DNA from: Pseudoscardovia radai | Lineage (GTDB): Bacteria; Actinomycetota; Actinomycetes; Actinomycetales; Bifidobacteriaceae | DNA length: 64,000 nucleotides | Assembly (NCBI RefSeq): GCF_002259605.1 | Contig: NZ_MWWR01000004.1 | Span: 62,001 to 126,000, forward strand | Direction: 5' to 3' | Shown here: positions 3,195 through 64,000 of the stretch, piece by piece | Position numbering within the stretch: the stretch's first letter is position 1 | Layout of the letters: every line of letters starts with the position of its first letter | Made by a program: the position numbers and the translations under genes | Notes under the pieces: generated by a model | What the model saw: the letters and a program-made list of their open reading frames with translations, nothing else | The model's database searches: none | Told to the model about the DNA's origin: nothing

Positions 3195-3276
3195 AACACT
3201 GTGATGGCTTGCGGACATTTTCGGACGATTTTGGCCTCGAAATCGTGGATTTGTGTCCGGAAGCCATCACATTGTT
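3195..3276 (+). repeat. Large palindromic element (family 2), solo copy
   Basis: The 82-bp near-palindrome has outer arms ACACTGTGATGGCTTGCGGA-type (left) and TCCGGAAGCCATCACATTGT-type (right) and an inner stem ACGATTT/AAATCGT. It contains the AATCGTGGATT motif in its core. It starts two bases beyond the dedA stop, on the 3' side of that gene. Other copies lie at 8132, 14757, 27601, 34361 and 45595. Confidence 0.85.
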
Positions 3277-3277
3277 T

Positions 3278-3973
3278 TCAGGCGGTCTCGCCCTCCGCGT
3301 CAGCGCCCGCGCTCTTCTTCTTGCCGAACTTCGCCTTGACCAGGCCGATCACCGTCGGCGCCAGCGAAATGAGCAGGATGAAGACGATCACCAGCTCGAA
3401 ATGCTCCTGCACGAACCGCACGCCGCCGAAGAAGTAGCCGAGCAGCGTGAACAGCGACGACCACACGAGACCGCCAAGCACGCTGAACGGCGCGAAACGG
3501 CGCCATTTCATGCCCGAGATGCCCGAGATAAACGGCATGAACGTGCGGATGAACGGGAAGAAGCGACCGAGGAAGACGGCAAGCGGGCCCCACTTGTCGA
3601 TCATGGCCTGCGTCTTGTCGATGCGCTCGGGCGTCATGGCCTTGACCTTGCCGGATTCGATGATGCGCGTGCCGAAGAAGCGACCGATGAAGAAATTGCA
3701 CTCGTCGCCGATGATCGGCGCGGCCCATACGACCGGCAGCAGCAGATTCAACGGCAGGGCGGCCTTACCGGTCGTCGCGTCGACGGCGGCGAAGCATCCG
3801 GCGGCGAACAGCAGCGAATCGCCCGGCAGGAACGGGAAGAACACGACACCCGTTTCAATGAACACGATCAGGAAAATGAATCCCAGCGTGGGCGCGACAC
3901 CCATGGCGATCCAGCCGGCGATGGCGCCACGCGGGTTCTTGAGAAGGTTGATGAAGAAATTGACGATGCCCAC
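3278..3973 (-). CDS. DedA-family membrane protein (VTT domain)
   Basis: A 231-residue polytopic membrane protein starting at ATG 3973. It has the DedA/VTT hallmarks: FIETGVVFFPFLPGDSLLFA with its conserved Glu and the PGD turn, and GRFFPFIRTFMPFISGISGM with the conserved Arg in the second re-entrant region. A Lys-rich tail (KAKFGKKKSAG) follows the last helix. DedA proteins are membrane transporters or flippases linked to lipid-carrier recycling and envelope homeostasis; undecaprenyl-phosphate is an accepted substrate for some members. It appears to be a single-gene unit, with the family 2 palindrome directly 3' of the stop. Confidence 0.93.
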   Translation of the reverse strand: MGIVNFFINLLKNPRGAIAGWIAMGVAPTLGFIFLIVFIETGVVFFPFLPGDSLLFAAGCFAAVDATTGKAALPLNLLLPVVWAAPIIGDECNFFIGRFFGTRIIESGKVKAMTPERIDKTQAMIDKWGPLAVFLGRFFPFIRTFMPFISGISGMKWRRFAPFSVLGGLVWSSLFTLLGYFFGGVRFVQEHFELVIVFILLISLAPTVIGLVKAKFGKKKSAGADAEGETA

Positions 3974-8131: not shown

Positions 8132-8213
8132 AACAGTGTGATGGCTTGCGGACATTTTCGAGGGTTTCGAGCCCCCAAATCGTGGATTTTTGTCCGTAAT
8201 CCATCACATTGTT
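8132..8213 (+). repeat. Large palindromic element (family 2), solo copy
   Basis: Arms run from AACAGTGTGATGGCTTGCGG (left) to CCGTAATCCATCACATTGTT (right) with AATCGTGGATT in the core. Two of its imperfect pairs are G.T read on the + strand, the strand of the preceding rsmI gene. A decayed single unit of the 84-bp family follows at 8229-8261 (CTGGCACGGG, then CCAGTGAGGGCGACTGT). Confidence 0.8.
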
Positions 8214-8349
8214 ATGAATTTCTGAACGCTGGCACGGGGGTAACCAGTGAGGGCGACTGTGGGAGGGGGTGTGGGCGAGGGGCGCCGCGTGGAAGCCGCC
8301 ATAAGAAACCGATATAGCGGCCTCGCTGAGTTTCCGGAGAAAAGCGTGT

Positions 8350-9647: not shown

Positions 9648-10907
9648 ATGTCCATCCACTCCACCGGCACCAACGCCGGCACCACCGCCGCGCGCCGCGC
9701 CGCCCGCCCGGCCCGCCGCGGCTGGCGCAAGGCCGTGAAATCCGCCCTCGCCGCCATCGTCGCGTCCACCACGCTCCTGTCCGTCTCCGCCTGCGGCCTC
9801 GGCGGCGACTCCGCCAACTCCAACGCGGCCGACGGCGACACCGTGTACATCGCCGCCATCTACCCGGCCACCGGCCAGTACGCCGAATACGGCAAGCTGT
9901 TCAAGGAAGGCTTCGATCTCGCCGTGGACGAGGTGAACGCGGACGGCGGCGTCGGCGGCAAGACGCTCGCCATCAAGTACTACGACACGCAGTCCGACGC
10001 CAAGCAGGACGCATCCATCGCCCCGCAGATCGCCTCCGACCAGTCCGTCATCGCGGTGGTCGGCGACTACGCCTCGCCGGCGTCCTCCGCCGCGTCCCCC
10101 ACCTTCCAGCAGGCCGGCCTCGTGCACTATGGCTTCAACAACTCGGCCTCCACCTTCACCGACACCGGCGACCATGTGTGGACGCCGCAGATCAGCCAGG
10201 AGCAGTACCAGAAGGCGAACGCCGACGTGGTGGCGAAGAAGGCCAAGAAGATCTCCGTCGTGTACATCGAGAACGACTGGGGCAAGCAGGCGTATGACTT
10301 CTTCAAGCAGGAGGCCGAGAAGAACGGCACCGAAATCGTGTACGAATCCTCGTACCTGTCGGACTCCACCGACCTCTCGCCGATCCTCATCCCGGCGCGC
10401 GACGCCCAGCCCGACGCCATCGTCGACATCGGCTACGGCCCGGACGGCGCGCTCGTGGTGAACACGCTGCGCGACAAGCTCGGCTACACCGGCCCGTTCT
10501 TCGGCGGCCAGGAGACAAGCGAGTTCCTCGAGAACGCCGGCAGCAACGCCGAGGGCACCATCATCACCGGCAGCTTCTCCGCCACCGGCACGAAGGACTC
10601 CAAGGCGCAGGCCTTCGTCAAGGCCTTCAACGACCGTTACGGCAACAACCCCGGCAACTTCGAGGTCACCGCCTACCAGGCCATCAAGGACCTCGCGTAC
10701 GCGGCGAACAAGACCTCGCCGACGCGCGACGGCATCCAGCAGGCGCTCCAGACCGTCACCGACTTCCCGCTCTACCAGGGCAACGGCGGCACCTTCAAGT
10801 TCAACACCGAGACCAGGCGCGCCGACAACATCGACCCGATCCTGCTCATCGTGAAGGACGGCAAGTTCGTGCAATACGATCCCGACACCGACAGCGCGTC
10901 GAACTGA
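9648..10907 (+). CDS. Branched-chain-amino-acid-type ABC transporter substrate-binding lipoprotein
   Basis: A 419-residue lipoprotein starting at ATG 9648. It has an Arg-rich n-region, a hydrophobic stretch (ALAAIVASTTLLSVSAC) and a lipobox ending at Cys49. The mature part is a Leu/Ile/Val-binding-protein (type I periplasmic binding) fold: VYIAAIYPATGQYAEYG, AVDEVNADGGVGGKTLAIKY, VIAVVGDYASPASSAASPTF and VYIENDWGKQAYDFF. The lipoprotein would sit outside the membrane and deliver substrate to LivHM. The N-terminal extension before the signal core is unusually long and Ala/Arg-rich. The exact ligand (branched-chain amino acid, other amino acid or amide) cannot be read from sequence. Confidence 0.9.
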   Translation: MSIHSTGTNAGTTAARRAARPARRGWRKAVKSALAAIVASTTLLSVSACGLGGDSANSNAADGDTVYIAAIYPATGQYAEYGKLFKEGFDLAVDEVNADGGVGGKTLAIKYYDTQSDAKQDASIAPQIASDQSVIAVVGDYASPASSAASPTFQQAGLVHYGFNNSASTFTDTGDHVWTPQISQEQYQKANADVVAKKAKKISVVYIENDWGKQAYDFFKQEAEKNGTEIVYESSYLSDSTDLSPILIPARDAQPDAIVDIGYGPDGALVVNTLRDKLGYTGPFFGGQETSEFLENAGSNAEGTIITGSFSATGTKDSKAQAFVKAFNDRYGNNPGNFEVTAYQAIKDLAYAANKTSPTRDGIQQALQTVTDFPLYQGNGGTFKFNTETRRADNIDPILLIVKDGKFVQYDPDTDSASN

Positions 10908-11020
10908 CGCGCGCGGTTGGCGCGGTGTGGCTGCGTCTGCCCGGCGCCCGCGGCAGGCAGGCGATAACGGACGATACACGATAGGCGGATGATCCAGCGG
11001 ATGATGAAGGTGGCAGGAAG

Positions 11021-14720: not shown

Positions 14721-14838
14721 CCTGTCCGCAACCCATCACATTGTTTTCAACTTCACAACAGTGTGATGGGTTGCGGACATTTTTCCACGATTTTGGGGTC
14801 GGACTCGTGGATTTTTGTCCGTAAGCCATCACATTGTT
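14721..14838 (+). repeat. Family 2 palindrome with three arms
   Basis: Arm 1 (14723-14745), arm 2 (14757-14779) and arm 3 (14816-14838). Arms 1 and 2 pair over 23 bp with a single G.U; arms 2 and 3 also pair over most of their length, so two hairpins are mutually exclusive. The core between arms 2 and 3 carries TCGTGGATT. It lies just after the livGF stop. Confidence 0.85.
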
Positions 14839-16381: not shown

Positions 16382-16528
16382 GTTCCGCACGCTACAGGAC
16401 GGCGCGCGGGGCCGCAGCGTGTCGCGAAAATTTGTGGATAAGCGGATAACTCCGCTTCCCTGTGGATAACTGTGCTTCCTGAGGGGCCACGATGGCCCTC
16501 CCTTCGATGCCGCGCCTGCGATCGCCCG

Positions 16529-16722
16529 GAATGGCGTTCGGCGGGTGTGGTGGCACCCGTTTAAGGCGGTTTCGGGTGGTTTGGGGCTGGTTTGGTGCTT
16601 GGAATGGCGTTCGGCGGGTGTGGTGGCACCCGTTTAAGGCGGTTTCGGGTGGTTTGGGGCTGGTTTGGTGCTTGGAATGGCGTTCGGCGGGTGTGGTGGC
16701 ACCCGTTTAAGACGATTTCGGA
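16529..16722 (+). repeat. Tandem array of 73-bp units with CGGGTG/CACCCG hairpin (family 3)
   Basis: Units begin at about 16532, 16605 and 16678; the first two are identical over 73 bp and the third is truncated after TTTAAG. Each holds GGCGTTCGGCGGGTG, a short loop, CACCCGTTTAAGGCGG and TTTCGGGTGGTTTGG. A related pair at the same 73-bp spacing is at 50208-50335. The array is upstream of metG. Confidence 0.85.
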
Positions 16723-16861
16723 CGATCGCGGCGATTCCGGGGCGTGCGGAGGCTGGGGGGAATCGTGGATTATGCGCGCAAGCCGTACCGGTGTTCCTGA
16801 AGAGCGCGCCAGCGCCCGCCGACCGGCGCTCCTTGTCGGCGCTCGTACGGATAATCGCACT

Positions 16862-19067: not shown

Positions 19068-19115
19068 CGAAACCGATTCGCCCGTGGTTCGCCCGTGGGG
19101 TCGCCCGTCTGGACC

Positions 19116-19755
19116 AACAGTGGCTCTCACTGGCACGGTGTTGACCAGTGAGAGCGACCGTTGGAGGCGGAGGCTAGTGTTTTCAACGTCGGGTTGGTTA
19201 ACGGTGCCTCTCACTGGCACGTCACGAACCAGTGAGGCCGACCGTTGCGGGAAAAGACCAGCATTTCCAACGACGAGCCAGCCAACAGTGGCCTTCGCTG
19301 GCACGGTGTTGACCAGTGAGAGCGACTGTTGGGGAGAAGGCCTAGTGTTTTCGACGGTGGAATCGTGAACGGTGCCTCTCACTGGCATGCCACGAACCAG
19401 TGAGGCCGACCGTTGCGGGAAAAGACCAGCATTTCCAACGACGAGCCAGCAAACAGTGGCCTCTCACTGGCACGGTGTTGACCAGTGAGAGCGACTGTTG
19501 GGGAGAAGGCCTAGTGTTTTCAACGCTGGAATCGTGAACGGTGCCTCTCACTGGCATGCCACGAACCAGTGAGGCCGACCGTTGCGGGAAAAGACCAGTA
19601 TTTCCAACGACGAGCCAGCCAACAGTGGCCTTCGCTGGCACGGTGTTGACCAGTGAGAGCGACTGTTGGGGAGAAGGCCTAGTGTTTTCAACGATGGAAT
19701 CGTGAACAGTGCCTCTCACTGGCACGTCACGAACCAGTGAGACCGACCGTTGCCT
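19116..19755 (+). repeat. 84-bp hairpin array A1, eight units, alternating two types
   Basis: Units start at 19116, 19200, 19285, 19368, 19452, 19537, 19621 and 19705 (period 83-85). Each has a 48-bp near-palindrome (AACAGTGGC-type left end, CTCTCACTGG and CCAGTGAGAG inner arms, GACCGTTG-type right end) plus a 36-bp linker. Units alternate: odd ones carry TGTTGACCAGTG and a CCTAGTGTTTTCAACG-like linker; even ones carry CACGAACCAGTG and AAAGACCAGCATTTCC. A 168-bp dimer has thus been amplified about four times. The array lies between metG and tatD. Confidence 0.92.
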
Positions 19756-19816
19756 GGCCGTGCGAAGCGCGGGCGCGCAAGGAACCGCACGGCGCGGGCA
19801 ACGCGGGGAGTATCGT

Positions 19817-23898: not shown

Positions 23899-24024
23899 TG
23901 TGCGGGGCGCCGGGGGCGCGCGGTGCCGGCGGGGTGTGCGGCGCCGGCGCTGCGGGTTCTTCGCTTGGCTCCTCTTCCGCGAGATCGTTCCCCGACTTTT
24001 GCTTCCGACCCCCTCGTTTTTCAT

Positions 24025-24468
24025 AAGAGTGCCTCTTACTGGTTGGCGGAGTGCCAGTGAGGGGCACTGTTGGGGAACGGTGCGCGTATTTTCAATGATT
24101 TCCCCGCCAACGGTCGGTCTCGCTGGTTGGCGGCGTGCCAGTGAGGGGCACTGTTGGCCGGGGTTGTGTTGGGAATGCTGGGTTTTGCTTCCAAGGGTCG
24201 GTCTCGCTGGTTGGCGGAGTGCCAGTGAGAGGCACTGTTGGGGAACGGTGCGCGTATTTTCAATGATTCCCCCGCCGACGGTCGGTCTCGCTGGTTGGCG
24301 GAGTGCCAGTGAGAGGCACTGTTGGCCGGGGTTGTGTTGGGAATGCTGGGTTTTGCTTCCAAGGGTCGGTCTCACAGGTCACCGGAGTGCCAGTGAGGGG
24401 CACTGTTGAATCTTCGGGGCGGGCCGATGCGGGCCGGCGTCCGTGTTCGGAAGCCGTACCACGGTTGT
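24025..24468 (+). repeat. 84-bp hairpin array A2, five units, closed by a half family 2 element
   Basis: Units start at 24025, 24109, 24193, 24277 and 24361, exactly 84 bp apart. The loop side reads CTGGTTGGCGG then GTGCCAGTGAG, i.e. inverted relative to arrays A1, A3 and A6. Linkers alternate between GGGAACGGTGCGCGTATTTT and GGGTTGTGTTGGGAATGCTG types. At about 24448-24468 a half element (CGGAAGCCGTACCACGGTTG-like) matches the third arm of family 2. Confidence 0.9.
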
Positions 24469-26029: not shown

Positions 26030-27511
26030 ATGGCACAGAACGAAAGCACCGACAAGAAGGCCAACATCGGCGTCGTCGGACTCGCGGTGATGGGGTCGAA
26101 CCTCGCCCGCAACCTCGCGCACCACGGCAACACCGTGGCCGTGTTCAACCGCACCTACGCGCGCACCGAGACGCTGATCAAGGAGCACGGCTCCGAAGGC
26201 GAGTTCATCCCCGCCAAAACCATCGAGGAGTTCGTCGCCAGCCTGTCCAAGCCGCGCACGGCCATCATCATGGTCAAGGCCGGCGCTCCGACGGACACCA
26301 TGATCGAGGCCCTCGCCGACGCCATGGAGCCGGGCGACATCATCGTGGACGGCGGCAACAGCTTCTACCAGGACACCATCCGCCGCGAGAAGGCCATCCG
26401 CGCCCGCGGCCTGCATTTCGTCGGCTGCGGCATCTCCGGCGGTGAGGAGGGCGCGCTCAACGGCCCGTCCATGATGCCCGGCGGCACCGAGGAATCGTGG
26501 AAGACGCTCGGCCCGATTCTCAAGTCCATCGCGGCCGTGGCCGAGGGCGAACCGTGCGTGACCCATATCGGCACCGACGGCGCCGGCCACTTCGTCAAGA
26601 TGGTGCATAACGGCATCGAATACGCCGACATGCAGCTCATCGGCGAAAGCTACGACCTGCTGCGCCGCGGCCTGGGCATGACCCCGCAGCAGATTGGCGA
26701 CGTGTTCGACGAGTGGAACAAGGGCGACCTCAACTCCTACCTCGTCGAGATCACCTCCGAGGTGCTCCACCAGACGGACGCCAAGACAGGCAAGCCGTTC
26801 GTGGACATCGTGGTGGACAAGGCCGGCATGAAGGGCACCGGCACGTGGACCGTGCAGACCGCGCTCGGCCTGGCCGTGCCCGTCACCGGCATCGCCGAAG
26901 CCGTGTTCGCGCGCGGACTGTCCGGCATGAGCGACCAGCGCGCCGAGAACGCCCGCACCCCGCTCGCCGGCCCGACCGGCGACCTCGGCATTGCGGACGC
27001 CGACAAGGCCGCGTTCGTGGAGGCCGTGCGCCAGGCGCTGTATGCGTCGAAGATCGTGGCGTATGCGCAGGGCTTTGACGAGATCCAGGCCGGCGCCAAG
27101 GAATACGGCTGGAACATCGACCTGGGCGCCGTGGCGCGCATCTGGCGCGGCGGCTGCATCATCCGTGCGAAGTTCCTCAACCGCATCTCCGAGGCCTACG
27201 ATAACGTGGCGGCCGGCAAGCAGGAAGCCTTCAGCTCCCTGCTGTTCGATGACTACTTCAAGGCCGCCGTGGAATCCGCGCAGGACGCGTGGCGCGAGGT
27301 CGTGGCGAAGGCCGCGCTCGCGGGCATCCCGGTGCCGGCGTTCTCGAGCTCGCTGTCGTACTACGACGGCCTGCGCTCGAAGCGCCTGCCTGCCGCGCTT
27401 ATCCAGGGCCAGCGCGACTACTTTGGCGCGCACACCTATGGGCGCGTGGACGAGCCGGGCGCGTTCCACACCCTGTGGAGCGGTGACCGCAGCGAGATCC
27501 AGACCGCGTAG
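26030..27511 (+). CDS. gnd: 6-phosphogluconate dehydrogenase (decarboxylating)
   Basis: A 493-residue protein starting at ATG 26030 after a GGAGG site. NADP-binding VVGLAVMGSNLARNLA at the start, FNRTYARTE as the NADP-specific loop, VDGGNSFYQDT, GCGISGGEEGALNGPS, catalytic HFVKMVHNGIEY, and C-terminal RAKFLNRISEAY and GQRDYFGAHTYGR, all family hallmarks. It oxidises 6-phosphogluconate to ribulose 5-phosphate, CO2 and NADPH. TAGAAT at 25981-25986 is a candidate -10 box. It works with zwf, opcA and pgl (30-34 kb) but is transcribed separately. A family 2 element and array A3 follow. Confidence 0.97.
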   Translation: MAQNESTDKKANIGVVGLAVMGSNLARNLAHHGNTVAVFNRTYARTETLIKEHGSEGEFIPAKTIEEFVASLSKPRTAIIMVKAGAPTDTMIEALADAMEPGDIIVDGGNSFYQDTIRREKAIRARGLHFVGCGISGGEEGALNGPSMMPGGTEESWKTLGPILKSIAAVAEGEPCVTHIGTDGAGHFVKMVHNGIEYADMQLIGESYDLLRRGLGMTPQQIGDVFDEWNKGDLNSYLVEITSEVLHQTDAKTGKPFVDIVVDKAGMKGTGTWTVQTALGLAVPVTGIAEAVFARGLSGMSDQRAENARTPLAGPTGDLGIADADKAAFVEAVRQALYASKIVAYAQGFDEIQAGAKEYGWNIDLGAVARIWRGGCIIRAKFLNRISEAYDNVAAGKQEAFSSLLFDDYFKAAVESAQDAWREVVAKAALAGIPVPAFSSSLSYYDGLRSKRLPAALIQGQRDYFGAHTYGRVDEPGAFHTLWSGDRSEIQTA

Positions 27512-27571
27512 TTGTGCGCGGGGCGCGTGAGTGCGCGTGGCGCGTGTGTGCGTGCGCGCGTGAGTGAGTGT

Positions 27572-27692
27572 CCGAAACCCATCCCACTGTTATCGATTCC
27601 ATAACAGTGGGATGGGTTTCGGGCATTTTTCGACGATTTCGGGGCCGGAATCGTGGATTTCTGTCCGGAAGTCGTACCACTGTTCCGGGGAG
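27572..27692 (+). repeat. Family 2 palindrome with three arms
   Basis: Arms 1 (27572-27593) and 2 (27601-27622) form a perfect 22-bp hairpin with a 7-nt loop. Their core reads CCCATCCCACTG against CAGTGGGATGGG, whereas the 14.7-kb copy reads CCCATCACATTG against CAGTGTGATGGG, so both arms changed together. Arm 3 (about 27661-27682) is more diverged. TCGTGGATT lies in the core. Confidence 0.88.
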
Positions 27693-27718: not shown

Positions 27719-28271
27719 AACAGTGGCTCTCACTGGCACTGGGGCGACCAGCGAGAGGGACTGTTGGCGGGGGAATCGTTGGGAATAGGCCGATTCCTTT
27801 CCAACGGTGTCTCTCGCTGGCACGGTGCTGACCAGTGAGAGGGGCTGTTGGCGCAAAAGGCCAGCAATCCCAACGCACATCTCGCTAACAGTGGCCTTCG
27901 CTGGCACGGTGCCGACCAGTGAGGGCCACCGTTGCCGGGGAAGGCTAGTGTTTGCAACGATGGCTTGGTTAACAGTGGCCTTCACTGGCACGGTACTGAC
28001 CAGTGAGAGGGACTGTTGGCGCAAAAGGCCAGCATTCTCAATGAGCATCTCGCCAACGGTGGCCTTCACTGGCACGGTACTGACCAGTGAGGGGGACTGT
28101 TGGCGGGGAAGGCCAGCAATTCCAACGAGCATCTCGCCAACGGTGCCTCTCGCTGGCACGGCGTTGACCAGTGAGAGCCACCGTTGCCGGGAAAGGCTAG
28201 TGTTTGCAACGATGGCTTGGTTAACAGTGGCCCTCACTGGCACTGGGGTGACCAGTGAGGGCCACCGTTGC
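27719..28271 (+). repeat. 84-bp hairpin array A3, seven units
   Basis: Units start at 27719, 27803, 27887, 27971, 28055, 28139 and 28223, each exactly 84 bp after the last. Several left arms read CCTTCGCTGG or CCTTCACTGG opposite CCAGTGAGGG, giving G.U pairs on the + strand. Linkers fall into two classes (CGCAAAAGGCCAGCA-type and GGGGAAGGCTAGTGTTTG-type). The array ends about 25 bp before the TATGAT box of acyP. Confidence 0.92.
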
Positions 28272-28323
28272 CGTCGCGCCAGCGCGCCACGTCGGTATGA
28301 TAGCTGCGGAGGAGGTCAGTGCC

Positions 28324-34360: not shown

Positions 34361-34445
34361 AACAGTGTGATGGCTTGCGGACGAAAATCCACGATTCCCC
34401 CCCCCTCGAAATCGTCGAAAAATGTCCGTAAGCCATCCCATTGTT
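34361..34445. repeat. Family 2 palindrome with inverted core
   Basis: Outer arms are in the usual order (AACAGTGTGATGGCTTGCGG at left, CCGTAAGCCATCCCATTGTT at right). The core instead reads GAAAATCCACGATTCCCC then CGAAATCGTCGAAAAATG, the reverse complement of the core orientation at 3195, 8132 and 14757. Inversion between the two arms would explain this. Confidence 0.8.
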
Positions 34446-34478
34446 CCGGAGGGGAGATTGCCGTTCGCAAGCCGCCCC

Positions 34479-34612
34479 CACAGTGCCTCTCGCTGGTCGG
34501 TGGGGTGCCAGTGAGGGCCACTGTTGGGGGAGCTGGTGTTGGGAACACTGGCCTTTTTCCGCAAGGGTGGGTCTTGCTGGTCGCCCCAGTGCCAGTGAGA
34601 CTCACCGTTGCC
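34479..34612 (+). repeat. 84-bp hairpin array A4, two units
   Basis: Units start at 34479 and 34563, exactly 84 bp apart, 33 bp after the family 2 element. Loop side reads CTGGTCGGTGGGGTGCCAGT. Both flanking genes (zwf and the AbiEi-like gene) are on the minus strand, unlike the settings of the other arrays. Confidence 0.85.
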
Positions 34613-34700
34613 GATAGGGCGGCGGAGGAATCGTTGTGCCCTCCGCCGCCTCGCGTCATCGCGCCCCCGCCGTCCCTCGCACCGTCGCGCCCGCGCCGGA

Positions 34701-35801
34701 TCAGGCATCGCCCCAGCGGCGCAGGTGAATCGTCAGTTGCCGCAGCGACACCGGCTTATGCACATCGATTTTCCGACCCGACAGCTGCTCCAGTCGCTGC
34801 GCCACGCCGTGCACGAACTCCATCTGCTTCGCGGGCAGGCTCAGATCGTCGTGCGTGGCGCCGAGGCGCGTCCAACCGGCGTTGTTCAGAAGGTTGAATC
34901 GTCGAATGTCGCTTTCCCAGCGCTGCTCGTGCTGCTTGCCGTCATACTCGATCGCCAGCTTGTGCTCGCCGTATGCCAGATCGAGATAAAAACACGATGT
35001 GGACCGCCCGGAGTAATAGCCGCCCGCGCTCGCGTCGTCCACGGCCCCGCCGGTCGGCACCTCGATCCGCGGATTGACCTGCGGACACGGCAGCCCGCAC
35101 TGCATAAGCAACAGGCGCAAGCGCGTTTCCGCAAAGGAATCCGTGTTATCCCGCACCAGGTCGAGCGCGCGAAGGCATGTATCGAAACCGCGCGGGAGCT
35201 TGCGCCGCGGCTTCTTGCGCGTAGTGGCCGTGTTGTTCGCATCGTCTGCGTCTGCATCCGCGTTCGTGCCCGAGCTCCCCGTGGCGGAGGCGATCGTGGT
35301 GCCCGCGCCTGCTCGTTGCGATCCCCGCACCTCCTGGACGAAGGCAGACACGGACTGCCGCAGGCGCTCGGCGGTCGTGTACTTCATGTCACGGTTGCGG
35401 CGGAGCAGGGCGTCGCCGAGCATCGTGACATACCCGAGCCCCTCCGTGCGCGCGAGCATGATCCACGCAATCTCGGGCCTGACGATTCTCACGCCGTCGA
35501 TCAGCGTGGTCGGCATCGGGAAGCTCCAGCACGTCGGGGCCGTGCCGTGATATCGGTGGCGCGATGTCGCCGGCGTGGATACGACGACGAGCTCGTCGCT
35601 GTCGATGCCTTGCGGCACATCGATTCCCGCGGCGTGCAGTGCGGTCAGCCCGCCGAACACGAGCTCGCATCCGGCGCGCGCCTGCAGTGCCGAACATCGC
35701 TCGAGGGTTTCGGCTTGTCGGATCCGCACCTTTTGAGGGAACGGAATGCTTGTGTCTGCAATGATTTTCCGGCTCAGACCGGTCAGTTTGTTTTCGCTCA
35801 T
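34701..35801 (-). CDS. AbiEi-like protein with C-terminal DUF559/PD-(D/E)xK nuclease-like domain
   Basis: A 366-residue protein starting at ATG 35801. The N-terminal half has an AbiEi-type plan (FGGLTALHAAGID, DELVVVSTPATSRH, VRIVRPEIAWIMLAR). The C-terminal part (about 245-345) matches DUF559, a very-short-patch-repair-like endonuclease fold: FYLDLAYGEHKLAIEYDGKQ, where Asp and Glu precede a YDGKQH segment, then IRRFNLLNNAGW. The middle (160-210) is Asp/Ala/Thr-rich. No toxin partner adjoins it. It may be an orphan DNA-binding or nuclease protein of accessory type. A perfect 24-bp palindrome lies 177 bp upstream. Confidence 0.72.
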   Translation of the reverse strand: MSENKLTGLSRKIIADTSIPFPQKVRIRQAETLERCSALQARAGCELVFGGLTALHAAGIDVPQGIDSDELVVVSTPATSRHRYHGTAPTCWSFPMPTTLIDGVRIVRPEIAWIMLARTEGLGYVTMLGDALLRRNRDMKYTTAERLRQSVSAFVQEVRGSQRAGAGTTIASATGSSGTNADADADDANNTATTRKKPRRKLPRGFDTCLRALDLVRDNTDSFAETRLRLLLMQCGLPCPQVNPRIEVPTGGAVDDASAGGYYSGRSTSCFYLDLAYGEHKLAIEYDGKQHEQRWESDIRRFNLLNNAGWTRLGATHDDLSLPAKQMEFVHGVAQRLEQLSGRKIDVHKPVSLRQLTIHLRRWGDA

Positions 35802-36014: not shown

Positions 36015-36094
36015 CCATCGCGCATGCGATGCGCGGCGTGTGAAGATGAATCGGGCCGGGGCGGGAGCGGGCCGAACGGGAGCGAAGGCGGGGC

Positions 36095-36480
36095 GACAGT
36101 GGAGCTCGCTGGTTGATGTCGTGCCAGTGAGGGCGACTGTTGGGGGGGAGTCGGTGTTGGGAACACTGGGCTTTTTGCGCAAGGGTCGGTCTTGCTGGTC
36201 GGTGCGGTGCCAGTGAGAGCTACTGTTGGCGGGGTAATCGTTGGGAATGCTCGTTCTGTTGCGAGACAGTGCCCTTCGCTGGTCGCTCCAGTGCCAGTGA
36301 GAGGCACTGTTGGGGGAGTATCTGTTGGGGATACTGGCCTTTTTGCGCAACGGTCGGTCTTGCTGGTCGCTGCGATGCCAGTGAGAGGCACTGTTGGGGG
36401 AGCTGGTGTTGGGAATACTGGTCTTGTTGCGCAACGGTGCCTCTCGCTGGTCGCCTCAGTGCCAGTGAGGGCCACTGTTG
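36095..36480 (+). repeat. 84-bp hairpin array A5, five units
   Basis: Units start at 36095, 36181, 36265, 36349 and 36433: spacing 86 (two extra G in the first linker), then exactly 84. The last right arm ends at 36480 and is followed immediately by GGGGAGG, the Shine-Dalgarno of the HD gene; the same GGGGGAG begins the internal linkers. Confidence 0.9.
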
Positions 36481-36492
36481 GGGGAGGCGGCG

Positions 36493-45423: not shown

Positions 45424-45564
45424 GCGGCCAAGTAAGCGGTGCGCGGGCGCGCCGTGTGGGCGTGTGCATGGGCGGGCGTGCGTGCGCTCCGTCTGCTCGT
45501 TCGGCCCGTGCGTTCGGCCCGTGCGTTCGGCCTGCGTGTCCGGTTCGTGAGCCGGCCGCGTCTT

Positions 45565-45683
45565 CGAAACCCGTACCATTGTTGCCGATTCTGCAACAGT
45601 GGTACGGGTTTCGGACATCTTCGACGATTTTGGGCTCGAAAATCGTGGATTTTGTTCGTAAGCCATACCAGTGTTCCGGAGGA
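45565..45683 (+). repeat. Family 2 palindrome with three arms
   Basis: Arms 1 (45565-45585) and 2 (45593-45613) pair over 21 bp with one G.U and a 7-nt loop. The arm core is CCCGTACCATTG with CAGTGGTACGGG, a third co-varied version beside those at 14.7 and 27.6 kb. Arm 3 (about 45653-45674) reads CGTAAGCCATACCAGTGTTC. It follows the MFS gene and leads into array A6. Confidence 0.88.
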
Positions 45684-45727
45684 GGCGACCGCCTCGCGCT
45701 GTGTCCCGTCCTCCTCCCCGCTTGCCG

Positions 45728-46590
45728 AACAGTGCCTCTCACTGGCACGGGGGCGACCAGTGAGACCGACCGTTGCGGACGGAGCCTAGTGTTTTCAACG
45801 CCGCCTTGGTTAACAGTGCCTTTCACTGGCACGGTATCGACCAGTGAGGGCCACTGTTGTCGGTCGGAGTGGGCATTTTCAACGATTTCCCCGTTGACGG
45901 TCCCTCTCACTGGCACGGTAGCAACCAGTGAGACCGACCGTTGCGGCAAAAGCCCAGTGTTCCCAGTGCGAACTTCTCCAACAGTCGGTCTCATTGGCAC
46001 TGGGCTGACCAGTGAGGGCCACTGTTGCGGGCGGGGCCTAGTGTTTTCAACGCCGGTCTGGTTAACAGTGCCTCTCAGTGGCACGGGAGCAACCAGTGAG
46101 AGGGACCGTTGGTAGGGAAAGCAAGCGTTTCCAATGGTGCTTGTCTTAACAGTGCCTCTCAGTGGCACGGGAGCAACCAGTGAGAGCGACCGTTGCGGAC
46201 GGAGCCTAGTGTTTTCAACGCCGCCTTGGTTAACAGTGCCTTTCACTGGCACGGTATCGACCAGTGAGATCGACCGTTACCGCGAAAGCCCAGCGTTCCC
46301 AGTGCGAACTTCTCCAACAGTCGGTCTCATTGGCACTGGGGCGACCGGTGAGGGCCACTGTTGCGGACGGGGCCTAGTGTTTTCAACGCCGGTCTGGTTA
46401 ACAGTGCCTCTCGCTGGCACTGGGGTGATCAGTGAGACCGACCGTTGCGGCAAAAGCCCAGTGTTTTCAATGCGGGTTTCTCCAACGGTGCCTCTCACTG
46501 GCACGGTGGTAACCAGCGAGAGGCACCGTGTGCGGGCGGGGCGTGGGCGGTGGTCCGCGAGCCGTACCACTGTTCCGGAGAGGCGCCCGC
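45728..46590 (+). repeat. 84-bp hairpin array A6, ten units, bracketed by family 2 parts
   Basis: Units start at 45728, 45812, 45896, 45980, 46064, 46148, 46232, 46316, 46400 and 46484: nine successive steps of exactly 84 bp despite sequence drift. Linkers recur in types such as GGAGCCTAGTGTTTTCAACG and AAAAGCCCAGTGTTCCCAGT. A half family 2 element (GAGCCGTACCACTGTTCCGG) closes the array near 46556-46578. Nothing else is seen between the MFS stop and 46786. Confidence 0.93.
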
Positions 46591-50186: not shown

Positions 50187-50207
50187 ATGCCTTGGGGAGG
50201 GGCGCGG

Positions 50208-50335
50208 AATCGTGTTAGGCGGGTGTTCCCACACCCGTTTAAGGCCGTTTCGGGTGATTTTGGTGCCTTAATGGCGTCGAAATCGTGTTAGGCGGGTGTC
50301 CTCGCACCCGTTTAAGGCCATTTCGGGCAGGGCGA
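50208..50335 (+). repeat. Family 3 repeat pair at 73-bp spacing
   Basis: Units begin AATCGTGTTAGGCGGGTGT at 50208 and 50281, exactly 73 bp apart. Hairpins CGGGTGT-TCCC-ACACCCG and CGGGTGT-CCTC-GCACCCG keep pairing (the second uses U.G on the + strand), followed by TTTAAGGCC and TTTCGGG. They match the array at 16.5 kb. Confidence 0.85.
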
Positions 50336-50450
50336 GGCACCCTCCGCCCCTCCGTCCGCCTCTCCGACCACTCCCTTGCTTTTCCGCGCACCCCGTACCA
50401 TGGTGGAGAACGAGAACCAAGACAGCGAGAGGACGGGATGAGGAATGTCC

Positions 50451-57814: not shown

Positions 57815-60800
57815 TTGAGAGAAAACACAAGGCGTTCGGCACGTCATGCCGGTGCCGGGAACAAACGCTGGACTTCGTGGGTCGCGGCTTCGGTGATCCT
57901 CGCCATGGTGGCGGGATCGCTGGGTGCGTTCGCGCTGACGGGCCGATCGCAGGCCCAGGCCGTGACGCCGACGGGCGCACCGGCGTCCACAAGCGATGTC
58001 GTGGCCGGCACGAAGGCGACCAGCACCGACATCACGATGTCGACCGGATCCGATGGCACGGCGACCACGAAGGACACGGGCATCGCCACCTGGGTCGGCG
58101 GCAATATGAACATCGGCATGGCCGACGCCGGTTCGTATGCGGCCGAGGCCGAGGGCGTGACGGCGGTGGCCGGCAACCTGACGACCAACCAGATCAAGAA
58201 CTCGTGGAAGGACTACGGTTACGGCTTCCGCTGGGGCCGCGTCGGCTTCGGAACCCAATTCCGCCCCGCTGACGGCAGCACCGTGCTTGCCGTGGGCGGC
58301 GGCGTGACGAAGGCCGGCGGCCACCATACCTTCCTCGTCGAGAACGGCTATGATGCCCGCATCGCCGGCTCCGAAACCTCCGACAGCGTGGTGAGCAAGG
58401 GCACGGGTAACGACGTGACCTGGAACTACAACGATCCGCTGAGCGCCGTGTCGATCGGCGGCAGCACCGTGGACCTCACCAAGGACGGCTTCTTCACACC
58501 CGACGTGGTGAACAGCATCTCGACGCCGCTGTCGCAGCGCACGGCGACGGGAACGGTGACGGTTGGCGAGGCGAACAACGATTCCGTCACCCGCAACTAC
58601 TTCGACAGCACGCAGGACTACACCTATCGTTTCTGCTACGCCGCCAACACGGACACGAACTGCAGCTCCGCGTCCAGAACCGACACCTACACGGCCCTGG
58701 GCCTGGGCAAGACGGGCACCTACAAGAACCTCGAGAAACTCATCACCCTGACCTCGACCGATACCACGAGCTCCGTCGTGGTGTTCGACCTCACGTCGGA
58801 CCAGCTCTCCGATACGCATAACGGCGTCCAGTACCGCGGCGTCGCCTTCGACTTCGAGAATATCCAGCCCGGCCAGCGCGTGGTGGTGAATGTGGAAGGC
58901 GAGACCGTCTCCTTCCACACGGGCTGGAAGTTCTACTGGAACGGCACCGAAATCGGCAATGGCTATTCCTCCTCGGCCGATTCAGCCGTGCGGTCGGCGT
59001 ATGTGACCGCGGCCCAGAGCATCCTGTGGAATTTCTACGAGGCCTCGAGCGTCACAATCGGCGGCGGCGTGGCCCGCGCCGGTCTCGACAAGTCCACCGA
59101 GGACGACCCCTCGGCCGCCATGCTCGGCTCCATCGTGGTGCCCAACGGCAGCCTCGACAGCCATGTCACGACGAACGGCCGCGTCTATGTGGGCGGCGAC
59201 TTCTCCATGGACAACCCCTACGCCGTGCATGCGGTGAATGCCGACGGCTCGCTCGGCGGAGTGGTGGGGACGGATACGTTCTACGAGGGCCCCACCTCCT
59301 CGGTTATCAACATGGACCAGGAGCGCCACAACTTCCCGTGGACGGCCGGCTCCTCGGTGTCCTGGAACAAGACGGACACCACCGGCAAGCCCCTCGGAAA
59401 CAGCACCTGGGCCGTGTACGGCACGTATGACGATGCGGTGAACGGCACGAACGCCCTCGTGACGGTGACCGACAACGATTCCACCGACATCGATCCCACA
59501 ACCGGCTCCATCAGCGTCGACGGCCTGAAAAGCGGCTCCGACTACTATCTGAAGGAGACCTCGGTCCTGAGCGGCTACATTCCGAACAACACGGTGTACT
59601 GGACCCGCATCACCGCGGGCACTGTGTCGGCCACCTTCGCCTATTCCGTGACGAAGAGCTCCTCGGGCTCTTTCACCTATGACGATGGCATCGGCCTGTA
59701 CAAGTCCGACGATGGCACCGTGTCCGTCGCGAACATGCCGGTCAAGGCCACGTGGGCGAAAACAACTGCGGACGGCGCGACGCCGCTGGCCGGATCGGCC
59801 TGGATCATCACGCGCCATGACGGCACCACGAACACCGACGCCACCGCCTGCGTCTCCGACAACAACGCCGTGAGCCAGACCGGTTGCGCGGTGACACTCA
59901 CAGATACGGATGCCACGGAGGGCACCGTTACGGTGTCGGGCGACGACGCCAGCGGCGATGGCTTCCTGGTCTATGGCGCCGACCGCTATACGTATACCGT
60001 CACGGAATCCGTGGCCCCGACCGGATACTACCGCTCTGCCACGCCATTCTCCCTCTCCTTCGACGGCACAAGCTATGTGGTGGCCCAGGCCGTGGCGGAT
60101 TCCCCCATCTCCGTGACGTGGAAGAAGACGGCCTCCGATACGGGCACGGCGCTCGCCGGCTCCGTGTGGAAGATCACGCGCACCGGCTCGAATAATTCGA
60201 CGGCGACCGCCTGCGTCTCCGACAACAATGTCTCCTACACCGTCGACGGATGCAATGCCGGCAGTGCCACGCTTCTGAACGACGCCGACTCCACGGACGG
60301 CACCATCACCGTCTCGGGCACGGACGCCGCCACCAACGGCTTCCTGCTCTCCGACACCGAGTCCACGACCTATACGTATACGCTGGCCGAGGTTCTGGCC
60401 CCGAACGGCTACGCGGTGGCGTCGCAGTCGCGCACTTTCACGATCGACTCCTCCACGCTGGTGGTCAACGCCGACGGCACGACGACGGCAGATACCGCCG
60501 CCGACGCCATCGTGGACCAGCAGGTCACCATGGCATGGTCCAAGATTTCGGGCTCCGACCACCTGCCGGATTCCGCCTGGCTCGTCAAGCGCACCTCGCC
60601 GACCGGAACCACCGCCTACGCCTGCGTGTCCGATAACGTGAGCGGCAGCTCGCAGTCCCTCGCCTCCCTGACCGCGTGCCAGAGCGCCGCGGGCACGGGT
60701 GCGGCCGTCACGCAGCTCACCGACACGAATACGGAGAGCGGCAAGTTCACGGTGGCCGATCGAACCGGCTTCCTCCTTGACGGTGCGATGGGATACAGCT

Positions 60801-63800
60801 ACCAGCTCATCGAAGTGGTGGCACCGAACGGCTACATGCTCGATTCGACTCCGCTTTCGCTGACCTACGCTTCCAATACCGCGCTCTATTACAGGGGCGA
60901 CGGTGGCAAGGACACGCCGATCAGCAACACCCCGATCGGTGTGAACTGGACCAAGGAAGACACCAACTTCAAGCCGCTGGCAGGCGCCGCCTGGAAGGTG
61001 GAGCGCTACGCGACCGCCACCGCCACCACGCCCGATGCCACCGGCTGCGTGGGTGACACGAGCTCGCAGAGCACTGCCAGCTACGCGGGTGTCGCCGCCT
61101 GTTCCACGGCCACGGCCCTGACCGACGGCAACACGGCCGACGGCATCGTGTCGCTTTCCGGTGACTTCCTCATCTCTGGCGCGCATTACGAGATCACCGA
61201 GGTGGTGGCGCCGACGGGCTTCCAGATCAACCCCGCCACCTATGTTCTGGCGGTGACGACGGATTCCGATGGCAAGCTTGTCTCCACGCTGACGTTGAAA
61301 ACCACGGGCGAGACCGTTGACGGTAATGTCATCCAGGACCAGCCGAATACGCTGGAGTGGAAGAAAGCCGATGCGTCCGGCGCCGCCCTGCAGGGATCCG
61401 TCTGGCAGGTCACGCGCTCCGGTAGCGACGGCTCCACGGCCACGGCCTGCGTGGGCGATAACGGCGCCTCCGTGCCGGGTACATGCACGACGACCCTGAC
61501 CGACGTGGATGTCACGGCTGGCTCGATCCAGCTCTCCGGCAGCAACTCCGCCGACCAGGCCTTCCTTCTGGGCAGCACCGAGACCGTGACCTACACCTAT
61601 TCGATCAAGGAGCTCGTGCCGCCGACCGGCTACACCCTCGACACCGCGGACCACGTGGTGACGCTGAACGCGGCGGCCAAGAACATCCCCATCCTCACGG
61701 TCACCGACGCCCCGGTTGTGGCGTCCTGGCAGAAGGTCGGCGCCGACGGCGCGACGCTTCTGCCCGCCGGCTCCGTGTGGGAGGTCGTCCGTACCGGCAC
61801 CGATGGCACCGACAGCTCCACGGCGAACGCATGCGTCGTCGATAACAACGACGCCGCCCGCCTTCCGAGCGGCTGCTCCGGCAAGACGACGCTCGTCGAC
61901 ACGAACGCCGCCGCTGGCGTCATCGAGCTGCGCGGCGATAACGCCGCCGACCGGGCCTTCCTCCTGGGCAACACCTCGAACACCACATACAGCTACAAGA
62001 TCGCCGAGCTCGTGGCTCCCGACGGCTACTCCAGCGCCAGCATCTCCGGCACGTATCTGCCTCTGTCCGCGGATTCCACCGGCACCCTGACAAGGACTCC
62101 GGTGACGAACAGCCCGGTGACGGCCACGTGGAAGAAGACGGATTCGGTGGGCGGCAACGCCCTGTCGGGCTCCGTGTGGAAGATCACGCGCACCGACACG
62201 GACACCGCCACATCCGCCTCGACCACGGCGACGGCTTGCGTCTCCGATGACAACGCCGATATCTCCGGTGTCACGGCCTGCTCCGATGCCACCGTGCTGA
62301 CCGATATGCAGGCCACGACGGCCGGAACGATCTCCATCTCCGGCGCGGCCGACGCGTCGTCCGCGGCCTTCCTGCTGGGCGGCGCCAACGGCACCACGCG
62401 CACATACACGCTCACCGAGGTCAAGGCCCCGACCGGTCACTACCTCGACACCACCGAGCGTGCGATGACGCTGGACCCCGCCACCGGCACGCTGTCGATC
62501 GCCAACGCGACCGCCGGCTCCGACGGCATCGCCACGATTCCCAACACGCCGCTCGCGGCGCAGTGGAAGAAGACGGATTCCGTGACGGGCGCCGCCATCG
62601 CCGGCTCGGTGTGGAGGCTCGTGCGCACGGCCACCAGCACCGCTGACCAGTCGCAGACCCAGACGGTCGCCTGCGTGTCCGACAACAACGCGGCGCTGAC
62701 GGGCGTCACCGCCTGCGACGGCGCCGAGACTCTGAACGATATCGACACGACTGACGGCACCATCCAGCTGTCGGGCGGCGAGGCATCGTCCACATCGTTC
62801 TTCCTGAGCGATGACGCCGACGCCACCTACACGTACACGCTCACCGAGGTCAAGGCCCCCGCCGGCTACTACCTCGACGGCACCACGCGCACGATGACGC
62901 TTGACAAGACCACGGGCGAGCTGTCCATCGACGGTGCGGGCACCGCCTCCGATGGCCTGCCCGCCCTGACGAACACGCCCATCGTGTTCTCCTGGACGAA
63001 GCAGAGCGCCGCGGGCGCCGCGCTCGCCGGCTCGGTGTGGACCGTCACCGACACCACCACGTCGCAGACGCGCTGCATCGGCGACGCGGGCGCGACCTCC
63101 ATCCCCGAATGCGGCACGAACGCGCTGCTCACCAACACGGGCACCGGCACCGGCGCCTTCACGGTGGACGGCTCGCAGGCCGCGAACACGGACTTCCTCG
63201 TGGAAGGCCATTCGTACAAGCTCGTCGAGATCAAGGCGCCGAACGGCTACTTCCGCAGCGCCACAACCGGCACCGCTTCGTACACCATGGCCTATGACGC
63301 GGCCACGAAGTCCTTCGCGCTCAAGGCCGCCGACGGCACCGCCGTGGCCGGCGCGACGGTGAGCGATGCGCCGATCAAGCTGACGTGGACGAAGGCCGAT
63401 AACATCAGCGACTCGAATAAGCTCTCCGGCTCCACATGGAAGCTCGAGCGCACCGGCACCGACGGTTCGACGGCGACGGCCTGCGTGGCCGACAAGAACA
63501 CGCCTATCGCGGGGTGCACCGGCACGAGGCTGACGAACGGCTCCGCCACGGCGGGCGTCTTCGACATCAGCGGCGACGCCTCCGACGCCAACGCGGGCTT
63601 CCTGCTCGACAACGTGGACTCCGGCACGACGTATACGTACACGCTGACCGAGGCCAATGCGCCGCAGGGCTATACGATCGACACCACGACGTACACGATC
63701 GACCTGGCCACGGGCACCGTGACCGGCACGAACGGCAACGTCATCGTGAACGTGCTCAAGACCGGCGCCGTGAGCTTCGGCAAGGTGCTGGTCGGCGGCG

Positions 63801-64000
63801 CGAGCGACGAACTGTACAGCTTCCAGAACACGGTGACTTTCGGCGGCACCGAGCAGTACCGTCCGGCCACCTACCCGGTCACCTTCGCCACGGTCACCGC
63901 CGGGGCGGACGGCTCGGACGCGAAGAAGTCCTCCGCCGCCATCGTCGACTACACGGTGGCGCAGGCGAACGGCTCGATCACGGTGTCGGTCGACGGCAAG
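57815..64000 (+). CDS. Giant secreted surface protein: choice-of-anchor-A-like head plus tandem SpaA/Cna-B-like domains (3' end outside window)
   Basis: TTG 57815 follows GGAAAGG at about six to seven bases; in-frame ATG 57758 has no ribosome site. The frame stays open for 2062 codons to the window end. A signal peptide is clear: basic start (ENTRRSARHAGAGNKRW), hydrophobic SWVAASVILAMVAGSLGAFA, then an AQAV cleavage region. Residues about 85-500 resemble a choice-of-anchor-A adhesin head (GGNMNIGMADAGSYAAEAEG). From about 513 come 11 domains of about 120-145 residues, each opening with W-x-K and closing with E-xx-xP-x-G, the Lys and Glu expected for SpaA/Cna-B isopeptide bonds. Ten of the 11 also carry one Cys pair. 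A different domain (GAVSFGKVLVGG) starts near 1984. Likely a sortase-anchored adhesin or pilin-like stalk; the anchor is not visible. Confidence 0.85.
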   Translation, partial: MRENTRRSARHAGAGNKRWTSWVAASVILAMVAGSLGAFALTGRSQAQAVTPTGAPASTSDVVAGTKATSTDITMSTGSDGTATTKDTGIATWVGGNMNIGMADAGSYAAEAEGVTAVAGNLTTNQIKNSWKDYGYGFRWGRVGFGTQFRPADGSTVLAVGGGVTKAGGHHTFLVENGYDARIAGSETSDSVVSKGTGNDVTWNYNDPLSAVSIGGSTVDLTKDGFFTPDVVNSISTPLSQRTATGTVTVGEANNDSVTRNYFDSTQDYTYRFCYAANTDTNCSSASRTDTYTALGLGKTGTYKNLEKLITLTSTDTTSSVVVFDLTSDQLSDTHNGVQYRGVAFDFENIQPGQRVVVNVEGETVSFHTGWKFYWNGTEIGNGYSSSADSAVRSAYVTAAQSILWNFYEASSVTIGGGVARAGLDKSTEDDPSAAMLGSIVVPNGSLDSHVTTNGRVYVGGDFSMDNPYAVHAVNADGSLGGVVGTDTFYEGPTSSVINMDQERHNFPWTAGSSVSWNKTDTTGKPLGNSTWAVYGTYDDAVNGTNALVTVTDNDSTDIDPTTGSISVDGLKSGSDYYLKETSVLSGYIPNNTVYWTRITAGTVSATFAYSVTKSSSGSFTYDDGIGLYKSDDGTVSVANMPVKATWAKTTADGATPLAGSAWIITRHDGTTNTDATACVSDNNAVSQTGCAVTLTDTDATEGTVTVSGDDASGDGFLVYGADRYTYTVTESVAPTGYYRSATPFSLSFDGTSYVVAQAVADSPISVTWKKTASDTGTALAGSVWKITRTGSNNSTATACVSDNNVSYTVDGCNAGSATLLNDADSTDGTITVSGTDAATNGFLLSDTESTTYTYTLAEVLAPNGYAVASQSRTFTIDSSTLVVNADGTTTADTAADAIVDQQVTMAWSKISGSDHLPDSAWLVKRTSPTGTTAYACVSDNVSGSSQSLASLTACQSAAGTGAAVTQLTDTNTESGKFTVADRTGFLLDGAMGYSYQLIEVVAPNGYMLDSTPLSLTYASNTALYYRGDGGKDTPISNTPIGVNWTKEDTNFKPLAGAAWKVERYATATATTPDATGCVGDTSSQSTASYAGVAACSTATALTDGNTADGIVSLSGDFLISGAHYEITEVVAPTGFQINPATYVLAVTTDSDGKLVSTLTLKTTGETVDGNVIQDQPNTLEWKKADASGAALQGSVWQVTRSGSDGSTATACVGDNGASVPGTCTTTLTDVDVTAGSIQLSGSNSADQAFLLGSTETVTYTYSIKELVPPTGYTLDTADHVVTLNAAAKNIPILTVTDAPVVASWQKVGADGATLLPAGSVWEVVRTGTDGTDSSTANACVVDNNDAARLPSGCSGKTTLVDTNAAAGVIELRGDNAADRAFLLGNTSNTTYSYKIAELVAPDGYSSASISGTYLPLSADSTGTLTRTPVTNSPVTATWKKTDSVGGNALSGSVWKITRTDTDTATSASTTATACVSDDNADISGVTACSDATVLTDMQATTAGTISISGAADASSAAFLLGGANGTTRTYTLTEVKAPTGHYLDTTERAMTLDPATGTLSIANATAGSDGIATIPNTPLAAQWKKTDSVTGAAIAGSVWRLVRTATSTADQSQTQTVACVSDNNAALTGVTACDGAETLNDIDTTDGTIQLSGGEASSTSFFLSDDADATYTYTLTEVKAPAGYYLDGTTRTMTLDKTTGELSIDGAGTASDGLPALTNTPIVFSWTKQSAAGAALAGSVWTVTDTTTSQTRCIGDAGATSIPECGTNALLTNTGTGTGAFTVDGSQAANTDFLVEGHSYKLVEIKAPNGYFRSATTGTASYTMAYDAATKSFALKAADGTAVAGATVSDAPIKLTWTKADNISDSNKLSGSTWKLERTGTDGSTATACVADKNTPIAGCTGTRLTNGSATAGVFDISGDASDANAGFLLDNVDSGTTYTYTLTEANAPQGYTIDTTTYTIDLATGTVTGTNGNVIVNVLKTGAVSFGKVLVGGASDELYSFQNTVTFGGTEQYRPATYPVTFATVTAGADGSDAKKSSAAIVDYTVAQANGSITVSVDGK

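Follow-up and report, generated by a model that had tools for sequence, protein, structure and literature searches.

The window analyzed here is a stretch of 64,000 nucleotides (bases 62001-126000) of the 318-kb contig C30 of Pseudoscardovia radai, whose assembly (G000) comprises 2.44 Mb in 35 contigs. At 14.7 kb in this window lies an element consisting of three arms of 23 bp each in the order + - +, spaced by a linker of 11 nt and a spacer of 36 nt (Table 1). It belongs to a dispersed arm repeat, here called family 2, and the window holds a second repeat family, the 84-bp arrays. The 14.7 kb element folds far better than its shuffled counterparts (z -6.7). Arms 1 and 2 pair through 22 Watson-Crick pairs and one G.U pair at both 14.7 and 27.6 kb, and through 20 Watson-Crick and two G.U pairs at 45.6 kb. 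The first-pass annotation had described this pairing with the variants CCCATCACATTG, CCCATCCCACTG and CCCGTACCATTG at 14.7, 27.6 and 45.6 kb; they are present and paired just so.

Table 1. Family-2 copies, their parts and the associated arrays in the window (PWM, position matrix).
Feature	Position	Strand	Basis
Two-arm copy; the stop of the - strand gene 3278-3973 is 1 bp away	3195..3276	+	
Two-arm copy, 59 bp past a + gene; partial 84-type unit next to it, ~8220-8268	8132..8213	+	
14.7 kb element, arm 1, 23 bp, TGTCCGCAACCCATCACATTGTT	14723..14745	+	PWM + pattern
14.7 kb element, 11-nt tail-to-tail linker, same length in all 32 aligned hairpins	14746..14756	.	
14.7 kb element, arm 2, reverse orientation	14757..14779	-	PWM + pattern
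14.7 kb element, 36-nt head-to-head spacer; T runs at both ends; inner hairpin CCACGA..TCGTGG	14780..14815	.	
14.7 kb element, arm 3	14816..14838	+	PWM + pattern
84-bp hairpin array, family-2-associated	24015..24408	.	
Single degenerate arm adjoining the 24.0-24.4 kb 84-bp array	24444..24466	+	
Three-arm copy of the ATCC/ATCC/GTAC type, immediately preceding the 27.7-28.3 kb array	27569..27684	+	
84-bp hairpin array, family-2-associated	27719..28274	+	
Two-arm copy, 39-nt spacer, adjoining the 34.47-34.61 kb array	34361..34445	-	
Short 84-bp-type array, family-2-associated	34469..34614	.	
Three-arm copy of the GTAC type with a 35-nt spacer, preceding the 45.7-46.5 kb array	45561..45675	+	
84-bp hairpin array, family-2 copies on both sides	45718..46537	+	
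Single arm closing the 45.7-46.5 kb array	46552..46574	+	

Arms, gaps and covariation

The arm consensus of 23 bp is TGTCCGYAASCCATCACAYTGTT, which carries neither a GTAG/CGTC tag nor an internal palindrome. Genome-wide, 206 arms are found at up to three mismatches as against 0 for the reversed pattern, and a position matrix built from copies detects 126 arms in about 220 kb; reversed sequence gives no hit above threshold. When further stretches were read, the count came to 177 arms in 78 loci, copies being read as stretches around the matches and those on the last contigs not all being included. The orientation of the arms alternates strictly, tail-to-tail neighbors being 11 nt apart and head-to-head neighbors 36 nt. 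The shorter gap is exact in 31 of the 31 hairpins first scored and the longer one is kept in 39 of 44, the others measuring 35 or 39 nt. Because the arms alternate at these two gaps, the three-arm element corresponds to 1.5 repeats of a tandem unit of 93 bp. It is not the typical form of the family: among the 78 loci, the two-arm form of 82 bp (-+) is commonest with 35, followed by +-+ (18), single arms (13), -+- (6), +-+- (4), -+-+ (1) and +- (1). The arms are conserved in sequence; the spacer keeps its length but varies in sequence. A stem reaching into the purine-rich flanks was considered and rejected, as the flank composition is loosely complementary without covariation. No replication-linked strand bias was found on C30, where GC skew mostly tracks the coding strand. 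The ends of contigs C16 and C31 (C31:341-534) share one array and arm sequence, and thus some breaks in the assembly fall within these repeats.

It had been claimed that the two arms of the hairpin co-vary between loci. Mismatches were counted by arm position in 32 distinct hairpins of the 11-nt-gap type and compared with shuffles. Positions 11-16 have 12 mismatches where shuffles have 29.8; the count is 57 at positions 7, 10 and 19 (57.2 in shuffles) and 33 at the remaining positions (32.9). For pairs across the 36-nt gap the corresponding figures are 29 versus 45.0 at positions 11-16, 130 versus 110.0 at positions 7, 10 and 19, which is more than chance, and 54 versus 51.8 at the rest. A pair counter applied to the 11-nt-gap hairpin gives double changes in 7 pairs as against 3.8 in shuffles; pair 10-48 is unpaired in 19 of the 32 hairpins. 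RNAalifold detects no covariation among 46 two-arm cores (covariation term 0.07). The claim thus stands at arm positions 11-16 and fails at positions 7, 10 and 19 and in the RNAalifold alignment. The double changes at positions 11-16 come from a handful of copies of the GTAC and ATCC subfamilies, so that shared ancestry or local copying explains the signal as well as selection does, and the loci at 14.7, 27.6 and 45.6 kb are atypical of the family in their covariation. Family-2 copies are paralogues and statistically non-independent; since copies within a genome share ancestry, selection and local arm-to-arm copying are inseparable here. The case calls for caution in general: when a palindrome covaries among a few paralogous copies, this lends an RNA structure weak support.

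Adjacent arrays and composites

The unit of the 84-bp arrays is a hairpin, AACRGTGSCTCTCRCTGG-11 nt-CCAGTGAGRGSSACYGTTG, and successive units are about 36 nt apart, so that its gap lengths are nearly equal to both gaps of family 2. The exact pattern gives 94 strand hits in the genome, and besides the arrays in Table 1 the window contains arrays at 19106-19758 and 36085-36486. The two families co-occur above expectation, as had been suggested: of the 8 copies of family 2 in the window, 6 are no more than 60 bp from an 84-bp-type array, as against 0.47 expected from random intergenic placement, and 6 was never reached in 20,000 random placements (p<5e-5). The copies at 27.6, 34.4 and 45.6 kb, which the first-pass annotation had placed within this distance of an array, are indeed there, the one at 34.4 kb having only two arms. 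The half-elements it had seen at the ends of the 24.0 and 45.7 kb arrays are single arms (Table 1). The association can go further: at C30:34858, 41087 and 134710 the two families form composites in which hairpin units, numbering 1, 3 or about 9, are enclosed on either side by a conserved flank, with an arm outside each flank. Several arrays elsewhere have no family-2 copy nearby, and therefore the two modules are separable.

Other repeats occur in the same neighborhoods. A third repeat, about 220-240 bp long and bounded by the inverted ends CGCGGTTTGTGGGGTC...GACCCCACAAACCGCG, is found in both orientations and sits between family-2 pairs in three places (G000:C30:8324-8542, 10734-10975 and 35164-35403). 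A 73-bp tandem hairpin repeat, GGCGGGTG..CACCCG, is present at 16528-16746 and 50206-50351 of the window and at 2290-2600 of another stretch (L024), and it also adjoins family-2 copies on contig C34 and in the congener G001. Another congener has intergenic arrays of its own (G003:C2:14600-39250), which are built on a different palindrome, CTATGTGTGAGTGGCGGCTGGCACATTGG; a spacer motif, TTGGCTTGTTTCC, is common to these arrays and the 84-bp arrays of G000.

Gene context and readings as RNA

According to a simple codon-usage gene caller, 18 copies lie between convergent genes and 6 between divergent genes, and between tandem genes 31 copies are closer to the upstream 3′ end as against 14 closer to the downstream 5′ end; most of the loci were fetched because they match an arm, and these context statistics are conditional on that match. 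No enrichment of a recurring neighboring gene family was found around the copies. In 26 of the 39 tandem cases the T run points the same way as the upstream gene (p 0.05), and in sense-strand stems G.U outnumbers A.C by 67 to 38, with p 0.006 when counted by cell and an insignificant 20 to 11 (p 0.15) when counted by element. T polarity and G.U excess are weak hints that transcripts matter.

Could the element be a two-state RNA switch? In the first-pass annotation, arm 2 was proposed to pair with either arm 1 or arm 3 as in an attenuator. Three-arm copies do allow both pairings, and the two folds are within 3 kcal/mol of each other in 12 of 33 three-arm stretches. A conserved switch, which should be balanced in most copies, is not supported by this proportion, by the absence of arm 1 from most loci or by the preferred fold, which varies from copy to copy (arm 1-2 is favored in 14 stretches and arm 2-3 in 19, and pairing 1-2 dominates in the three three-arm copies of the window). 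Moreover, the copies follow genes rather than occupy leader positions, the neighboring gene is not common among them, and two mutually exclusive conserved folds, as expected of a riboswitch or attenuator, were not found; an Rfam search of the window returned tRNA only, with no match in the region of the element. The proposal is extremely improbable.

A reading closer to the gene context is that the copies are terminators selected as such, hairpins with a T run after stop codons that have been copied because they end transcripts. It would agree with the bias to gene 3′ ends, with the T polarity (26:13) and sense-strand G.U excess given above, and with the TTTTT found behind the arm 1-arm 2 hairpin at 14.7 and 27.6 kb. 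In addition, behind the gene that ends at 27511, G001 has a classical hairpin and T run where G000 has family 2. A hairpin-then-T-run motif is present in many three-arm copies but not behind the arm hairpin of the two-arm form, the commonest one. The polarity is opposite in a third of the copies, pairing at positions 7, 10 and 19 is not maintained, and the arm is invariant in sequence rather than covarying, all of which speak against selection for termination and leave this reading a rather unlikely one.

Distribution, spread and known repeat families

Family-2 matches are present in 3 of 189 genomes of the bacterial family, all of the same genus, which is represented by four genomes: that of the window (G000) and the congeners G001, G002 and G003, of which the last has no match. 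In the congeners, the stretches syntenic with the window (G001, 120 kb; G003, 60 kb; G002, about 40 kb) contain no arms, and the intergenic gaps corresponding to 24.0 and 27.6 kb are shorter there than in G000. One orthologous copy is common to G000 and G001; over about 118 nt the two sequences differ twice, in the spacer each time. The simplest reading of these sequence comparisons is that family 2 expanded in this lineage. Matches in contigs of Victivallales and Bradyrhizobium are single isolated arms and were taken as chance. The distribution bears on a reading in which the arms are sites bound as DNA by a nucleoid or repair protein and kept for that binding. The conserved arm sequence and the rigid spacing would fit it, as would the apparently much higher density of exact arms on C30, several times that on most of contigs C1-C29 by a rough estimate from the listed matches. 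A family found in so few genomes and nearly absent from congeners is unexpected for an essential site, and we regard this reading as very improbable.

Inverted 23-bp ends enclosing an interior of fixed length (36 bp), dispersed copies and congener sites without copies would fit a classical MITE, a non-autonomous offshoot of a DDE transposon, here with terminal inverted repeats of 23 bp. Against this, two-arm copies have no target-site duplication (direct identity of flanks 0.39 as against 0.38 for shuffles, with insertion points blurred by diverged intergenic sequence), arms stand in tandem at strict spacing, no recurring gene that could be a parent transposase with the same ends was seen in the neighborhoods of copies, and viral and plasmid sequences gave no family-2 match. 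A MITE is accordingly an improbable identity for the family.

REP-type repeats have their best-known examples in Proteobacteria, and RAYT transposases are the usual explanation for them. REPINs have conserved inverted ends and a spacer of kept length, and form clusters (PMC3116915). Family 2 resembles such REPIN/BIME elements (PMC3116915) in its inverted conserved ends, length-kept spacer, hairpin formation, high copy number and extragenic location, and in occurring mostly as doublets with some tandem clusters, single arms being likely remnants. It differs in that the arm has no internal hairpin and no GTAG/CGTC tag, and in the second fixed gap of 11 nt; further, no Y1/RAYT/IS200 transposase (Y1_Tnp, PF01797) was found in G000, which is 91.5% complete, or in G001 and G002, and G003 has one RAYT/IS200 transposase but no family-2 match. 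Because RAYT and the tags are missing, family 2 is not classed as REP or REPIN. Untagged families of palindromic repeats exist, as do CGTC repeats without a dedicated transposase (PMC3733652), and GTAG-tagged, CGTC-tagged and untagged repeats lie, like family 2, between convergent or unidirectional genes and near 3′ ends (PMC3733652); the arms of family 2 are longer (23 bp) and untagged, and the text of that study makes no mention of Actinobacteria. The composites recall BOX elements of Streptococcus pneumoniae, in which conserved ends surround a variable number of internal hairpin units, and which likewise cluster with other repeat families and are biased to 3′ ends (PMC3049150). This likeness is one of architecture and concerns some loci only; family 2 has no target-site duplication in its two-arm copies, and its end modules also occur alone. 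SPRITE of S. pneumoniae shares the long stem and the T-rich tract near gene 3′ ends, but is a single AT-rich hairpin without alternating arms (PMC3049150). A literature search on palindromic repeats in Bifidobacterium and Bifidobacteriaceae found nothing relevant.

Taken together, family 2 is probably a dispersed, modular, palindromic intergenic DNA repeat that has spread as DNA and is no regulated switch; it is best read as a new REPIN/BIME-like repeat without a tag, which may be terminator-like once transcribed. The arm is a sequence-conserved module of 23 bp, any adjacent pair of which can form a long hairpin; arms beyond the common 82-bp unit are added in steps of the 93-bp period, as in REPIN/BIME clusters. 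The unit may have been spread by an enzyme acting in trans, or its palindromes may have allowed recombination and template switching, and copies would be tolerated after stop codons. RNA made there would contain long hairpins, in part with a T run behind them, and these probably act as weak terminators or 3′-end stabilizers. Much more tentatively, and with a rather low likelihood, there may be a RAYT-independent system that spreads palindromic arms while measuring two fixed distances, 11 nt and about 36 nt, and that handles family 2 as well as the 84-bp arrays; sister species would have families of their own. With its lineage-specific expansion in one genome of the Bifidobacteriaceae, rigid spacing, composites with a second repeat family and no detectable Y1 transposase, family 2 offers a case in which the means of spread can be looked for among close strains.

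Two more repeats lie toward the ends of the window. An array of 72/144 bp, whose hairpin is CATGGCGA..TCGCCATG, occupies 2085-2416, and a very long open frame at 57893-64000 contains DNA repeats of about 400 bp at 59.7-63.7 kb; its repeated domains are presumably SpaA-like pilin.
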